NCBI GenBank assembly: GCA_001768975.1 | Contig: MEND01000230.1 | Location: forward strand, 13,311-46,645 | Length of the DNA: 33,335 nucleotides | DNA from: Bacteroidetes bacterium GWA2_31_9 | GTDB lineage: Bacteria; Bacteroidota; Bacteroidia; Bacteroidales; GWF2-33-38 | Direction of reading: 5' to 3' | In this document: positions 8,986 to 17,164 of the stretch, piece after piece | Numbering within the stretch: the stretch's first letter is position 1 | Layout of the letters: each line of letters opens with the position of its first letter | Translations under genes and position numbers: made by a program | Notes under the pieces: model-generated | Told to the model about the DNA's origin: nothing | Database searches by the model: none | Seen by the model: only the letters and a program-made list of their open reading frames with translations

Positions 8986-9324
8986 CTATAAATTTAGATT
9001 TTTGTTAAGAAATTTTTTTAACTCAGGAATTTTAGTCTGGATAACTTGCCAAACAACTTTATCATCAACACCGAAATAATCGTGAACTATAATGTTTCTA
9101 AATCCTTGAATCTTAAACCAATCTATTTCGGGATATTTGTTTTTAAATTCTTGACTTAATTTTACAGTCATTTCCCCAATTACAATAAAGTTCAGCATTA
9201 CAGCATCATAAGGAATATAATCCTTTTTTAACTCATCAATTGTGGAAAATTTACTTGAAATTTCTTCAATCTTCTTGACAGAATCAAGAATATTAAAACA
9301 TAATAAGTCATCTTTGCTATACAT
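8986..9324 (-). CDS. hepT: HepT-like toxin (HEPN, DUF86)
   Basis: Small alpha-helical HEPN-superfamily protein of 112 residues, the RNase-type toxin of MntA/HepT (type VII) toxin-antitoxin systems. The hallmark RX4HXY motif is intact as R76-NIIV-H81-D-Y83 (FRNIIVHDYFGVD), where the Arg and His act in RNA cleavage and the Tyr is the residue that MntA AMPylates in characterised systems. Its start overlaps the end of mntA by 8 bases (9317-9324), giving the usual antitoxin-first translationally coupled order. A family member used only as a nucleotidyltransferase partner without toxicity is possible. Confidence 0.88.
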   Translation of the reverse strand: MYSKDDLLCFNILDSVKKIEEISSKFSTIDELKKDYIPYDAVMLNFIVIGEMTVKLSQEFKNKYPEIDWFKIQGFRNIIVHDYFGVDDKVVWQVIQTKIPELKKFLNKNLNL

Positions 9325-10993: not shown

Positions 10994-13057
10994 ATGAGAA
11001 TTTTAACTGTAATTTCAATTGTTATGATAATGTTTTCATGCAATAATAATTTTAAAGCTCCTGATTTGATGAATAAAAATGAAGGAATTGATAAAAACGC
11101 TGTGAGTGCTATAATAGACAGTATGATAGCTAAATTTGGAACTGATAATCAAGAACGAATTAAAAAAGCTGTTAGCCAAGTTGCTGAGTTATGGAAAGAA
11201 AGTGATGGTAATTCAGACGAATTTAAACAATTCTGTTTGTCGAATTTTTATAACGATGATAAGGAATTAGACTTATTATTCAACAAAATATCAAGAAATT
11301 ATGAAGTTTTAAATGGTTATTTCAATAAAATAAGTATTGAACTTAAAAAGCCTTTACATCTTGATATGGGCGATATAAATGCCATTGACGAACTTTTTGG
11401 AAGTTATGAGCCAAGTTCACATTTAACCGAAGATTTTTTTGTAAATAAATTGGCGTTTATTGTAATGCTGAATTTTCCACATTATAGCCTTTCTGAAAAA
11501 GCCGAAAACGGAAAAAGCTGGACGAGCAAACAATGGGCTTATGCAAGAGTTGGAGATATGTACACATCACGAGTCCCTGCTGATTTATTACAAAATTATT
11601 CAAATAAAACTACATCGGCAGATACTTATATTTCAGAGTATAATATTTATATGGGAAATCTGATTAATTTAGACAAAAAAACACTTTTTCCTGCTGAATT
11701 AAAACTAATTACACACTGGGGTTTAAGAGACGAACTTAAATCGAATTATAATGTCGAAAATGGTTTCGATAAGCAAAAAATGATTTATGCTGTTATGAAA
11801 AATATTATTTCTCAAGAAATTCCTGAAAGTGTTATCAATTCAAACGAAAATTTGTGGAATCCTTTTGAAAATAAGTTATTTAAAAATGATGGAACTGAAA
11901 TTAAGTTCAAACCTGAGCCTAATGTTCGTTACCAGCATATAATTGAAGTTTTTAATGCACAAACAGAAATTGATAAATATAATCCGTTAGAGCCATCTTA
12001 TATTCAACGAAAATTTGACGGCGAAATGGAGCTACTTCAGGACGAAGTTGAAAAATTATTTATTGATTATATTTCTTCGCCAACAATTAAAGAAGTTGCA
12101 GAATTAATTAAAAAGCGATTAGGTCGAAATCTTGAACCATTTGATATTTGGTACGATGGATTTAAGTCGAGAAGCAGCATAAACGAAGAAGAGTTAAACA
12201 AAATAGTTTCTGCTAAATATCCTAGCAAAGATGCGTTTGAAAAGGATTTGCCTTCAATTTTAGTTAAATTGGGATTCCAACAGGAAAAGGCAAACTTTAT
12301 AACTTCTAAAATTGTTGTTGACGCATCACGTGGAGCAGGACATGCTTGGGGTGCAGAAATGAAAGACGATAAATCTCGATTAAGAACAAGGGTAGGAGAT
12401 AAGGGCATGGATTATAAAGGTTATAATATTGCAGTTCACGAATTTGGACACAATGTGGAACAAACCATATCGTTGCATGATGTTGATTTTTATAGCCTTA
12501 GAGGTGTTCCGAATACTGCTTTTACCGAAGCTTTGGCTTTTGTTTTTCAGGAAAGAGATTTAGAATTATTAAATATTAAAAGCACTGACGAAAATAAAAA
12601 ACATTTAATGGCACTTGACAATTTTTGGTCAACTTATGAAATAATGGGCGTTTCGCTTGTTGACCAGAAAGTTTGGAAATGGCTTTACGAGCATCCAAAA
12701 GCAAATGCTGAAGAATTAAAAGTTGCTGTAAATTCAATTTCAATTGAGGTTTGGAATACATATTATGCAGATGTTTTTGGCATTAAAGACCAGCCAATTT
12801 TGGCAATTTATTCTCACATGATTGATGCTCCACTTTATCTTTCGGCTTATCCAATTGGATTGTTAATTCAATTCCAGCTTGAGAAACATTTTGAAACTCA
12901 CGATTTTGCAACAGAAGTACAACGAATTTATAAAACCGGAAGATTAATTCCTCAAATTTGGATGAAAAATGCAGTTGGAAGTGAAATTTCTGCACAACCT
13001 ATGATTGATGCAGCTTCTGAGGCTGTCAAAGTAGTTGAAAGTGGAAAGATGGAATAA
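10994..13057 (+). CDS. Lipoprotein zinc metallopeptidase (M3-like gluzincin)
   Basis: Exported lipoprotein of 687 residues with a zinc-peptidase centre. The N-terminus is a lipoprotein signal (hydrophobic run, lipobox IMFSC, lipidated C16). The zinc motif HEFGH is at 482-486 (VHEFGHNVEQT), and a glutamate 26 residues later (FTEALAF, about E512) is placed like the third ligand of M3-family oligopeptidases, where the spacing is similar. Just before it is DASRGAGHAWGAEM, a Gly/His-rich loop. The rest is mostly helical, as in M3 enzymes, but I do not see the other M3 signatures, so it is better called M3-like. Predicted role is peptide cleavage at the membrane. Alternative: another MA-clan family known only as a conserved Bacteroidetes protein. 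Confidence 0.7.
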   Translation: MRILTVISIVMIMFSCNNNFKAPDLMNKNEGIDKNAVSAIIDSMIAKFGTDNQERIKKAVSQVAELWKESDGNSDEFKQFCLSNFYNDDKELDLLFNKISRNYEVLNGYFNKISIELKKPLHLDMGDINAIDELFGSYEPSSHLTEDFFVNKLAFIVMLNFPHYSLSEKAENGKSWTSKQWAYARVGDMYTSRVPADLLQNYSNKTTSADTYISEYNIYMGNLINLDKKTLFPAELKLITHWGLRDELKSNYNVENGFDKQKMIYAVMKNIISQEIPESVINSNENLWNPFENKLFKNDGTEIKFKPEPNVRYQHIIEVFNAQTEIDKYNPLEPSYIQRKFDGEMELLQDEVEKLFIDYISSPTIKEVAELIKKRLGRNLEPFDIWYDGFKSRSSINEEELNKIVSAKYPSKDAFEKDLPSILVKLGFQQEKANFITSKIVVDASRGAGHAWGAEMKDDKSRLRTRVGDKGMDYKGYNIAVHEFGHNVEQTISLHDVDFYSLRGVPNTAFTEALAFVFQERDLELLNIKSTDENKKHLMALDNFWSTYEIMGVSLVDQKVWKWLYEHPKANAEELKVAVNSISIEVWNTYYADVFGIKDQPILAIYSHMIDAPLYLSAYPIGLLIQFQLEKHFETHDFATEVQRIYKTGRLIPQIWMKNAVGSEISAQPMIDAASEAVKVVESGKME

Positions 13058-13163: not shown

Positions 13164-13171
13164 TAAATTTG
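13164..13171 (+). promoter_or_regulatory. Candidate -7 box for the ATPase/TOPRIM pair
   Basis: TAAATTTG fits TAnnTTTG and ends 21 bases before the ATG at 13193. The nearest upstream TTG is too close (11 bases), so the -33 element is not supported. Confidence 0.4.
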
Positions 13172-13192: not shown

Positions 13193-14404
13193 ATGATAAA
13201 ATCAATTCAAATAAAAAACTTTAAATCTGTAGTTGACCTTTCTCTTGATTTGGGTGTATTCAATGTTTTGATAGGAGAAAATGGTTGTGGTAAGTCAAAT
13301 GTTTTAGAAGCAATTGCCTTTGGAGCAGCAGCTAGCAATGACAAGCTTGATTATGAGTATTTTGGAAACAGAGGCATTAGAGCTACAAATCCTGAATTTA
13401 TGTATTCAGCATTTACGAATGGTAAAAAAAAGAAGTCAATTGAAGTTAACATTACTACTGATGAAAGACAATATCCGTATAATTTAGAGCATGAACAAAA
13501 CAATACTAAAAGATGGGTAAACAAAAATAAAGAAGTTGCGTTGAAAGAAATTGAAAAGATTTTTAAAACGTTATATCTTGAAAATGATGAAGAAAAAAGA
13601 GCAAAAGTTTTAGCTGAAATTAGCGAAGGCAAAGATGAAATACTTTTGATTTCTGAATTATTAAAACCCTATAGAAGTGAAAATGATTTAAAAGAATTTT
13701 TTGGCAAACTTTATCCAACATTATTAGAGAAAGCATTTTCTAATAATGAGATTTCTGAATACATGATTTATTCTCCCGAACAAAGTCATTTAAGAAAAAC
13801 TGACGAAACAACACCTATTTATCCACTTGGAAATAAGGGAGAAGGACTTTTTCAATTCATTAAGGAACTTGCTTATGACAAGAAGAACAAGATAACATTA
13901 AGTAATATTAAAAATAATTTAAATCTTCTTGATTGGTATGAAGACTTTGACTTACCTGAAAATTTAATGACTAATGAATTTTCTCTGAAAATAAAAGACA
14001 AATATCTTTACGAAAATCTTAAATACTTCGACCAACGTAGCACTAACGAAGGTTTTTTGTTTTTGCTTTTTTATTCTACATTATTTATTTCTAAGATAAC
14101 TCCTTCTTTTTTTGCTATTGACAATATTGATGCATCATTTAATCCAAAATTATGTATGCAGTTGACAATGAATCTTGCAACTTTAGCAAAAAAACATAAA
14201 AAGCAAGTAATTGTTACAACGCAAAACCCTGCTATCTTAGATGGTTTGAATTTAAAAGACGACAATCAACGTTTATTTGTAATAAGTAGAAATAGTGATG
14301 GACATACAAGAGCAGAAAGAATAAATTATAATGAAAAACGAACGATGAGATTATCTGAGGTTTGGACAAAAGGTTTCATTGGAGGACTACCCGAAAATTT
14401 CTAA
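13193..14404 (+). CDS. ABC/AAA15-type ATPase, RloA/OLD-like
   Basis: Soluble 403-residue ATPase of the SMC/ABC-like group found in OLD, RloA, PARIS and Septu systems. It starts with the typical strand IKSIQIKNFKSV, then Walker A GENGCGKS (28-35, K34). A middle helical insertion (about 85-270) contains charged stretches. The signature-like region is STNEGFLFLLFYS and Walker B is FFAIDNID with D310. Unusually, the residue after D310 is Asn (N311) where ABC ATPases have catalytic Glu, and the H-loop histidine is replaced by Gln (TTQNP, Q344). Gene 14419 follows after 14 bases and looks like its partner. Together they resemble an RloA/RloB-type cassette, often associated with restriction loci or phage defence. 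No restriction genes are present here. Function is inferred from family and pairing only. Confidence 0.75.
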   Translation: MIKSIQIKNFKSVVDLSLDLGVFNVLIGENGCGKSNVLEAIAFGAAASNDKLDYEYFGNRGIRATNPEFMYSAFTNGKKKKSIEVNITTDERQYPYNLEHEQNNTKRWVNKNKEVALKEIEKIFKTLYLENDEEKRAKVLAEISEGKDEILLISELLKPYRSENDLKEFFGKLYPTLLEKAFSNNEISEYMIYSPEQSHLRKTDETTPIYPLGNKGEGLFQFIKELAYDKKNKITLSNIKNNLNLLDWYEDFDLPENLMTNEFSLKIKDKYLYENLKYFDQRSTNEGFLFLLFYSTLFISKITPSFFAIDNIDASFNPKLCMQLTMNLATLAKKHKKQVIVTTQNPAILDGLNLKDDNQRLFVISRNSDGHTRAERINYNEKRTMRLSEVWTKGFIGGLPENF

Positions 14405-14418
14405 TTATATAATTGTAA

Positions 14419-15090
14419 ATGAAATTTGCACTAATCACAGAAGGAATATCTGAGCATAGAATTATTAGACATATTCTTGAGAAATTTTTCAAAGATAAAG
14501 TCCCATTTATTAGACAAATTCAACCACAAATATTTAATGAAAAACAAATTTCAATTGGTAGTTGGAATGAAGTATTGAAGTATTGTGGAAGAACAGATGA
14601 TTTAAAAGAAATTTTTAACAATAATGATTATTTAATAATTCAAATTGACACCGACAAATCACAAACAAAACCATTTAGCATTAGTCATTCAAAGATAGAT
14701 AATACATTAAAATCAGTTGATGAATTATGCAATGAAGTTATTGTGAAGTTAAAAAGTATTATTAGCCTTGAAATTATTAAAGAACACGGTAATAAGATTT
14801 TCTTTGCAATTTGCGTACATTCTATTGAATGTTGGTTACTACCTTTATTATATACAAACAATCTTAAGTCAAAAACACATGGTTGCATTGATACACTTAA
14901 CACTGAATTAATAAAAAAAAATATTCATATAATTCCAAATGGAAATAAAAACAATCATAATGCAATTAGAACTTATGAGACAATATTAAAAATTTGGAAA
15001 AGAAAACAAGATATAATTGAATCATCTAAACATAATGAGGGATTTAAAAAGTTTATTAATTCGCTAAAAACAATTGATTTAACAAAATAA
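14419..15090 (+). CDS. TOPRIM-like RloB/DUF4276-type partner protein
   Basis: Small (223 residue) protein directly downstream of the ATPase, with 14 bases between. It begins KFALITEGISEH, giving a conserved-position glutamate (E8) after the first strand. It then has IIQIDTDKS with D77-X-D79 after a hydrophobic strand, and VHSIECWLL with E137-X-W139. This E ... DXD ... E-x-W arrangement is that of TOPRIM-related RloB/DUF4276 proteins, which are found next to AAA15 ATPases and in several cases belong to nuclease-type defence systems. If so it would bind metal and cut or bind nucleic acid. The C-terminal 60 residues are basic and helical. AriB (DUF4435) of PARIS is an alternative relative but is usually longer. 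Confident as the operon partner, less so for the exact family. Confidence 0.6.
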   Translation: MKFALITEGISEHRIIRHILEKFFKDKVPFIRQIQPQIFNEKQISIGSWNEVLKYCGRTDDLKEIFNNNDYLIIQIDTDKSQTKPFSISHSKIDNTLKSVDELCNEVIVKLKSIISLEIIKEHGNKIFFAICVHSIECWLLPLLYTNNLKSKTHGCIDTLNTELIKKNIHIIPNGNKNNHNAIRTYETILKIWKRKQDIIESSKHNEGFKKFINSLKTIDLTK

Positions 15091-15136: not shown

Positions 15137-17164
15137 ATGAGTTTTTTATACCCATCAATGCTTTTTGGATTATTGGCAGTTTCGATTCCAATAATTGTTC
15201 ATTTATTTAACTTCCGAAAATATAAAACTGTTTACTTCAGCAATATATCTTTTCTGAAAAATATAAAACAAGAAACTAAAGCTAAATCGCAGTTAAAGCA
15301 TTTATTAATTTTATTTTCAAGAATTTTAGCAATTATATTTTTGGTTCTCGCTTTTGCACAACCCTTTATTCCTGTTAGCACGCAGCACGAATCAAATGCA
15401 GGTTTGGTTTCGGTTTATGTTGATAATTCATTTAGTATGGAAGCCGATGGCGAAACTGGAAAAATTCTGGAAGCAGCCAAGAGCAAAGCAAGCGAAATTG
15501 CTGAAGCATATCCAGCATCGACAAAGTTTATTTTGGTAACAAACGATTTTTATTCTAAGAATCAGCATCCTGTGAGCAGAGACCAATTCCAATTGAATGT
15601 TTCTGATATTCAATCGTCTCCAATAGTTAGAAATACTTCTGAAATTATTTCAAAATTCAATTCTTTTAAGGATTTTGGAATTAAACAGATGAATTATTAT
15701 TTGTCTGATTTTCAAAAGTCGAGTACCGATTTTTCAAATGTATCACCAGATACTTCAATGGATTATTATTTAATGCCTTTTGAAAATACAAATTACAACA
15801 ATTTATATATTGATTCCAGTTGGTTCGAGACTCCAGAGCATAAGCTTTTGCAAACAGAAAACTTTAATATCAAAATTGTAAATAAATCGGAAGAAACCTA
15901 TCAGAATATTTCACTAAAACTGTTTATAAACGACACATTAAAAGCCGTTAATAGCTTCAATATTGATAAAGCCAGCGAAAAAACGATAAGCCTTTCGTAC
16001 ACCAATACAACAAATAAAATTATCAAAGGAAAGGTAGAAATTACTGATTATCCTATTGTTTATGACAATGTCTTGTATTTTAGTTATTTAATTCCAGAAC
16101 AAATATCTGTACTTTCAATTTTCAGTAAAGAACCAAATTTGTTTATAAATAGCCTGCTAGACGATACACTTTATAAGGTTTCATCTGAAAATGTTAAGAA
16201 TCTGAATTATTCGGAGTTTAAAACTTATGATGTAATTATTTTAGACCAGATTGATGAGTTTTCTACAGGTTTGACTCACGAAATTGAACAATATGTTGCA
16301 AACGGCGGAACTTTGGTGTTTTTTCCTTCAAATAAAAGCAATTTAAGTTCGTACAATTTATTTTTTGAAAAACTTAATTTGCCTCAGGCTTCGGGAGTTG
16401 ATACTGTAAAAACTCAAATTCGATTTGTTAATACTGAAAATAATATATTTAAAAACGTATTTAAAAAGCTAAAAGAAAACTCTGATTTGCCAATTGTGAA
16501 TTCGCAATTATTGTATCAAAAGTCGAATTCGTTGAGCGAAGTGATATTGGAAACAAAAAATAATATGCCCGTATTGGCTTATTATCCATTTAGTAAAGGG
16601 AAAATCTATTTGTTTAGCATTAACCTGACAAAGGCATCTGGCAATTTTGCAACTCATCCGATTTTTATTCCAACTATGATTAACATTATCAATAATAGCT
16701 CGACACTAATGCCTATTTATTATTCTTTGGGCGATAATGTTAATGTTGATTATAGCTACAATAGTGAAAATGCAAATACAGTTTTTAAAATTAAAAATGA
16801 ATCAAGCGATTTTGAATTTATTCCATTTTTTAAATTACAAAGCTCAGGATTAAACATCAATATAAGCAACGAAATAAGCTCGTCTGGCAATTATATAGTG
16901 TTTGACGATAAATCTGCCCTGTTTCCATTATCTTTCAATTACAAGCGATCTGAATCCGATTTAGCTAGTTATAGTTTTGATGATATTCAGAATTGGATAA
17001 ATACAAAAGCAAATAATTGTTTTTATCTTTTTGAAAATAAAAACATTCAAATTTCAAAGCAAATTAACGAAATCAATTCAGGATTAAAGCTTTGGAAGTT
17101 TGCTTTAGCACTCGCATTATTATTCCTTATTGTTGAAATGTTGTTGATTCGATTTTTGAAGTAA
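15137..17164 (+). CDS. BatA-domain, VWA-like membrane protein
   Basis: Membrane protein of 675 residues of the BatA/aerotolerance-regulator type. The N-terminal domain is diagnostic: a first helix YPSMLFGLLAVSIPIIVHLF, the short basic segment FRKYKTVYFSNISFLK, and a second helix at about 57-77 (LLILFSRILAIIFLVLAF). A von Willebrand A-like region follows with a DXSXS MIDAS start (VYVDNSFSME). The long middle part is presumably periplasmic and beta-rich, including an Ig-like region (about 230-310) and a glutamine-amidotransferase-like fold region (about 330-510). A last helix (LWKFALALALLFLIVEMLL) anchors the C-terminus. The role of these proteins is not well defined; classical Bat operons sit with MoxR ATPases, absent here. 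It converges on the next gene with 7 bases between. Confidence 0.75.
   Translation: MSFLYPSMLFGLLAVSIPIIVHLFNFRKYKTVYFSNISFLKNIKQETKAKSQLKHLLILFSRILAIIFLVLAFAQPFIPVSTQHESNAGLVSVYVDNSFSMEADGETGKILEAAKSKASEIAEAYPASTKFILVTNDFYSKNQHPVSRDQFQLNVSDIQSSPIVRNTSEIISKFNSFKDFGIKQMNYYLSDFQKSSTDFSNVSPDTSMDYYLMPFENTNYNNLYIDSSWFETPEHKLLQTENFNIKIVNKSEETYQNISLKLFINDTLKAVNSFNIDKASEKTISLSYTNTTNKIIKGKVEITDYPIVYDNVLYFSYLIPEQISVLSIFSKEPNLFINSLLDDTLYKVSSENVKNLNYSEFKTYDVIILDQIDEFSTGLTHEIEQYVANGGTLVFFPSNKSNLSSYNLFFEKLNLPQASGVDTVKTQIRFVNTENNIFKNVFKKLKENSDLPIVNSQLLYQKSNSLSEVILETKNNMPVLAYYPFSKGKIYLFSINLTKASGNFATHPIFIPTMINIINNSSTLMPIYYSLGDNVNVDYSYNSENANTVFKIKNESSDFEFIPFFKLQSSGLNINISNEISSSGNYIVFDDKSALFPLSFNYKRSESDLASYSFDDIQNWINTKANNCFYLFENKNIQISKQINEINSGLKLWKFALALALLFLIVEMLLIRFLK

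Follow-up and report, generated by a model that had tools for sequence, protein, structure and literature searches.

Pairs of ABC ATPases and TOPRIM proteins form a large and growing immune group, in which the trigger and the nuclease target are known for few members. A two-gene cassette in a 33,335-nucleotide stretch of DNA from Bacteroidetes bacterium GWA2_31_9, here called the window, raises the question of whether it encodes such an immune pair and, if so, how its ATPase might control its putative nuclease.

Identity of the two-gene cassette

Genes A and B (Table 1) lie on the same strand, A first, with a spacing of 14 bp in the ORF list of the window, and a check of this list reproduced exactly the two reading frames, the gap and the flanking genes that the first-pass annotation had given. 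The best PADLOC-DB match of A is PDC-M31A (239 bits, 2.2e-71), with PDC-M25A as the runner-up family (102 bits, 8e-30), while B matches PDC-M31B (40 bits, 8.7e-11) as its sole family. A match to the A profile, a match to the B profile and A-before-B adjacency on one strand, which together define PDC-M31 membership, are all present; since both proteins score as PDC-M31, the pair belongs to a listed candidate defence system. The first-pass annotation had recognised no named system for the pair with certainty and proposed a PADLOC search, and that search, in which the genes score as PDC-M31A and PDC-M31B, now supplies the name of a listed candidate. A 2026 survey (PMC12988326) traces the PADLOC candidates (PDCs) to a guilt-by-embedding screen and notes that most of them still await validation, and no paper using the name PDC-M31 was found in the literature searched.

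The GC content is 0.287 for A, 0.240 for B and 0.295 for the window; native genes elsewhere in the window have almost equally low values, so that composition is not informative as a sign of an island. Terminator, tRNA and insertion-repeat signals were not found at the A–B pair. A -7 box had been proposed upstream of A, and its sequence, TAAATTTG, is indeed present 21 bases before the ATG; however, the pattern TAnnTTTG occurs 54 times in the AT-rich window, against 64 +/- 9 expected, and a count that is not above chance means that the box alone proves nothing. Elsewhere in the window, a HepT-like RNase gene (8986-9324, minus strand; PF01934, 1e-26) has no nucleotidyltransferase partner of at least 100 aa listed beside it.

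Table 1 Features of the A–B pair and its flanks, in window coordinates.
Feature	Position	Strand	Basis
Upstream flank: 687-aa HEXXH protein (peptidase)	10994-13057		ORF call
Possible Bacteroidota -7 element TAAATTTG before A	13164..13171	+	Pattern match only
Gene A: 403-aa SMC/Rad50/PtuA-like ABC ATPase, PDC-M31A	13193..14404	+	Pfam, PADLOC, AF2, Foldseek
A, Walker A GENGCGKS, residues 28-35, intact	13274..13297	+	Alignment
A, ABC signature-like N-E-G, residues 285-287	14045..14053	+	Alignment
A, Walker B/D-loop FFAIDNIDASFNP, residues 306-318	14108..14146	+	Alignment
A, catalytic Glu position, Asn311	14123-14125	+	Alignment
A, switch-His position, Gln344 in the window copy	14222..14224	+	Alignment
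Gene B: 223-aa RloB/DUF4276-type TOPRIM-like putative nuclease, PDC-M31B	14419..15090	+	PADLOC, hhalign, AF2, Foldseek
B, TOPRIM motif I glutamate E8 (EG-x-[ST]-[DE])	14440..14442	+	Alignment, hhalign
B, TOPRIM D-x-D, D77-T-D79	14647..14655	+	Alignment
B, E-x-W, E137-C-W139	14827..14835	+	Alignment
Downstream flank: BatA N-terminal-domain protein	15137-17164		PF07584, 2.6e-21

Motifs and predicted folds of A and B

Gene A carries the Pfam domains AAA_21 (7e-22) and AAA_15 (1e-12). Its AF2 model (pLDDT 88.4) retrieves retron/Septu PtuA, Rad50 and SMC heads from the PDB in Foldseek searches (E ~1e-12 to 1e-13), and the predicted fold is that of an SMC/Rad50/PtuA-type head. Across 91 pair-forming homologues, the Walker A residues G28, N30, G31, G33 and K34 are invariant, as is G287 of the signature-like motif, whose E286 is kept in 90/91. 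Position 311, however, is Asn in 89/91 and Ser in 2/91 of the same homologues and Glu in none, so that A lacks the catalytic glutamate after the Walker-B Asp by which a hydrolysis-competent ABC ATPase is recognised. The PDC-M31A motif reads D-N-I-[DE] where the partner ATPases of related systems show D-E-P-E: wherever the motif could be recovered, the ATPases that accompany DUF4276, RloB or DUF4435 proteins have Glu, and so do the six remoter ATPases that have no B and align in this column. The fixed substitution of Asn for the catalytic Walker-B Glu across PDC-M31A looks new. At position 344, His is present in 86/91 and Gln in four homologues of the pair-forming set. ABC ATPases that lose their catalytic Walker-B Glu tend to form a stable dimer with ATP bound.

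Gene B scores above cut-off with nothing in Pfam, its top family being DUF4276 with 17.9 bits against a gathering score of 30.2, and RloB (PF13707) gives no match at E<=1. Profile–profile comparison with hhalign relates B to DUF4276 (97%, E 1e-10) and to RloB (69% over 103 columns), with 0.2% for DUF4435; a column-reversed control profile scores 0.1-0.4% (0.4% against DUF4276). When B is compared with the OLD TOPRIM, the aligned segment is exactly the EG-x-T motif. The AF2 model of B, built with 65 homologues in the alignment, reaches a pLDDT of 94.9, and its top Foldseek hit among viral models is an RloB-like protein (prob 1.00, E 5e-3, TM 0.51/0.53); against the PDB, GajA (E 0.05) and AriB (E 0.06-0.12) appear in the first ten, none of them significant. 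E8, D77-x-D79 and E137-x-W139, the residues picked out in the earlier annotation, all lie where it had placed them in B, and among 85 distinct homologues E8, D77 and W139 are found in 85/85, D79 in 69/85 and E137 in 71/85. With a conserved Glu and a D-x-D in a predicted TOPRIM fold, B has the features of the TOPRIM superfamily, and the profile comparison, the fold and the invariant E8 and D77 together make a divergent TOPRIM protein of the RloB/DUF4276 type its most fitting description, putatively a metal-dependent nuclease. The earlier RloB/DUF4276 TOPRIM-like reading of B is thus borne out by the 97% hhalign score and the RloB-like predicted fold; a lack of TOPRIM fold, which would have spoken against it, was not seen.

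Distribution and genomic contexts

We fetched homologues of A from plasmids, GTDB genomes and IMG/VR. B lies directly downstream on the same strand in 94/102 full-length A homologues, with a median gap of 1 bp over the 94 pairs, and one of the remaining eight retains a B remnant. Excluding the window and 13 loci that had been fetched through B, the figure is 80/88. Homologues of both genes in other phyla, together with these 80/88 adjoining partners, show that A–B is a conserved two-gene unit beyond chance. Intact pairs occur in Bacteroidota, Cyanobacteriota, Pseudomonadota, Campylobacterota and others, as well as in the fetched IMG/VR contigs, and one locus (L069) holds a tandem A-B-A-B arrangement with copies 66% and 80% identical. 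The closest relatives of the window A are from Bacteroidota MAGs (65-66% identity). The tree of A clusters by phylum with extra label changes (six each for Bacteroidota and Pseudomonadota), where more than one change per phylum is not proof of transfer. No third operon partner is constant across the loci, at which the neighbours are mostly unrelated housekeeping genes.

The pair is accessory, being sparse and missing from most relatives. With B as query, matches come from 4/41 genomes of the order to which the window belongs, one of the four being the genome of the window itself, the same-genus and same-family genomes give no match, and 13/396 genomes match in a phylum sample, the same with the PADLOC model as with a window-type profile. 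Universal conservation at this locus, which would have refuted the candidate-defence reading of the first-pass annotation, is therefore not what we observe. A comparison for an empty insertion site met the peptidase and BatA genes on separate broken contigs in the same-genus genome, and on separate contigs with other neighbours in the same-family genome. Behind the peptidase orthologue of the same-genus genome (L028:1-300), where the contig ends, there is a short, possibly MITE-like element with inverted ends of ~20 bp, TATATCAATAGTTCGGTAT and ATACCGAACCATTGATATA. No match to B was found in isolated phage records, and none to the A–B pair DNA in E. coli genomes. The host genome carries, on other contigs, an RloB-family (AbiL-like) protein with an adjoining ATPase (L178) and a DUF4276 (HEC-01) pair (L152).

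Most chromosomal copies, including that of the window, sit between unrelated housekeeping genes; other copies are found in mobile contexts. Small mobilizable plasmids (5.8-13 kb) of Paracoccus and Acinetobacter carry the pair, and on an Enterobacter conjugative plasmid it lies near traI, with a SAVED + ThiF gene cluster downstream. P2-like prophages have the pair next to their portal and terminase genes in L126:1507-6309 and next to the portal gene in L124:1688-4729; at L127 and L128 the neighbours, compared by size and strand, match, and at L055, L086 and L120 the pair adjoins a baseplate gene. In P2-like phages, a cos-proximal anti-phage hotspot extends from gpA to the portal gene gpQ (Rousset et al. 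2022, PMC9122126), a comparison for which the fetched contigs show the portal side only. PADLOC matches are a minority among the neighbours of the pair, in a count made without a background control.

Several relatives have the pair fused to, or embedded in, restriction–modification genes, a connection that looks new. In L084:7497-9179, L088:1770-3380 and L092:2-1594, the HTH domain of BsuBI/PstI endonucleases (PF17728; 1e-33 to 1e-39) is N-terminal to A and the TOPRIM gene follows; an Eco57I-type methylase lies directly upstream of the fused A in L084 and L088, and L092 begins at a contig end. In L051:1080-5264, a type ISP restriction–modification enzyme shares one open frame with A, which may be a real fusion or a lost stop, and B follows 2 bp downstream. 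L045:6864-10998 has the order M.EcoRI-like methylase, A, B and GmrSD_N/HNH endonuclease, with a gap of 0 bp between B and the endonuclease. In a random Bacteroidota sample, matches above cut-off for BsuBI/PstI-domain::A fusions were confined to open frames 211-351 aa in length, which could not accommodate such a protein.

These fusions raise the possibility of a restriction system with an ATPase/TOPRIM cutter, and hence of a different role for the pair: A–B could be a DNA nuclease module directed against unmodified or foreign DNA, in which the ABC ATPase and TOPRIM protein replace the usual nuclease, and the stand-alone window copy would sense DNA ends or replication structures, as OLD/Rad50 do. 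The N-terminal BsuBI/PstI domain carries A where the endonuclease's own nuclease domain would be, and this role also draws on the upstream methylases, the type ISP frame, the L045 arrangement and the SMC/Rad50-like fold of A. Yet no methylase is linked to the window copy or to most of the homologues, and the three BsuBI/PstI fusions fall into a single clade and thus probably reflect one event, so we regard this role as possible but not probable. Proximity to restriction genes would also fit the guarding of restriction, as in PARIS: A would sense a phage anti-restriction protein and free B to cut host tRNA or other RNA, stopping growth. AriA/AriB offer a precedent with the same two-protein architecture (PMC12409363), but B is no DUF4435/AriB homologue by hhalign, and A is without the Walker-B Glu that DUF4435 partner ATPases keep, which leaves a PARIS-like guard doubtful.

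Small plasmids and a two-gene operon are also what a toxin–antitoxin or plasmid-stabilisation pair might show, with A restraining a toxic B and no specific anti-phage action. This is unlikely, given that the order of ATPase first and nuclease second and the size of the ATPase match defence dyads and that restriction-enzyme fusions are atypical of such pairs; "AbiEii", attached to AAA_21, is no more than a family name, and an assignment to the type IV toxin–antitoxin systems (AbiE), for which that name was the sole basis, was rejected. Least probable is a housekeeping pair for DNA repair that acts in the cell cycle or in nucleic-acid processing. The Rad50/SMC-like fold of A would suit it, and an archaeal OLD-family ATPase is reported to act in the cell cycle (PMC12796447), but the A–B pair is sparse, missing from same-genus and same-family genomes, and carried by plasmids and prophages.

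Possible mechanism and comparison with known systems

The pair is likely to be a phage-defence module, as far as its sequence and contexts suggest, and the candidate-defence reading of the first-pass annotation gains support from the PDC-M31 assignment, the mobile contexts, the P2-prophage portal neighbour and the restriction–modification fusions. Our preferred reading, to which we give a probability of about two in three, is a stand-alone, horizontally moving ABC-ATPase/TOPRIM immune module, PDC-M31, in which an ATP-clamped A controls B. A would bind ATP with slow or no hydrolysis, because its catalytic Walker-B Glu is Asn and, in the window copy, its switch His is Gln; such hydrolysis would make A a nucleotide-clamped oligomer and an infection sensor rather than a motor, a clamp model that we infer from the Asn311 substitution. 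The ATP-clamped oligomer would keep B inactive until a phage product, or an altered DNA or nucleotide state, releases or activates it. B, as a metal-dependent TOPRIM nuclease, would then cut nucleic acid and stop phage growth, possibly by abortive infection. The substrate of B is the least certain part of this scheme: the repeated fusions of A to restriction enzymes favour DNA, and the PARIS precedent allows tRNA. Several points weigh against the preferred reading: most PADLOC candidates of this class await validation, the immediate neighbours at most bacterial loci are housekeeping genes with defence genes in the minority, isolated phage records contain no B, the PDB search with the fold of B brought no significant match, and D79 or E137 is absent from some homologues.

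More tentatively, PDC-M31 could be a class of its own within ABC-ATPase/TOPRIM immunity: its ATPase, having lost the catalytic glutamate, would be a sensor clamp that is locked by ATP and does not hydrolyse it, and the two proteins together would form an effector that can be plugged into restriction–modification loci by way of DNA-binding fusions. In the resulting restriction systems, a TOPRIM nuclease gated by an ATPase would do the cutting. The restriction-enzyme fusions suggest a target for the PDC-M31 module and, since the module is compact and widespread and has fixedly lost its hydrolysis residue, it offers a direct test of ATP as fuel versus ATP as a structural or sensing ligand.

Among known systems, PARIS and Gabija may serve as working models for the mechanism. 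In PARIS, the sensor AriA releases the tRNA-cutting AriB (PMC12409363). Like PARIS, the window pair has separate ABC ATPase and TOPRIM proteins, and A matches AriA models through AAA_15/21, so that an adjoining AAA_15/AAA_21 ATPase is present; a DUF4435/AriB partner is absent, as B has no AriB match, and the ATPase motif differs. Membership in PARIS was rejected on account of B, which is not DUF4435/AriB, and of the missing Walker-B Glu in A. GajA of Gabija, a precedent within this group, is reported not to hydrolyse ATP and to be inhibited by it (PMC10568477). The pair shares the ABC ATPase and TOPRIM logic of OLD/GajA, including the EG-x-T alignment of B with the OLD TOPRIM, but consists of two proteins rather than one fused protein and has no UvrD helicase in the operon; no single polypeptide was matched by both the A and B profiles, as an OLD/GajA architecture would be.

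The systems with RloB- and DUF4276-type partners resemble the pair in their gene order. With RloA/RloB (AbiL in PADLOC) it has in common the RloB-like predicted fold of B, the ATPase–nuclease order and the GxxG-x-P tail of the ATPase, whereas B is without an RloB Pfam match, its hhalign relation covers 103 columns, and RloA retains D-E. With HEC-01, it shares an ATPase directly upstream of a DUF4276-related protein, and A shows homology to HEC-01A (5e-25). B itself is remotely homologous to DUF4276 but falls below the DUF4276 gathering score and has no PADLOC match to the HEC-01B profile, and A has DNI[DE] where HEC-01-type ATPases have DEPE/EEPE. The closest likeness is to PDC-M31 itself, whose A and B families are the best matches of the window genes in the same order. 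The window B nevertheless scores 40 bits against the PDC-M31B models, compared with 306 for the Enterobacter copy, and this low score marks the window pair as a divergent Bacteroidota branch of the PDC-M31 family.
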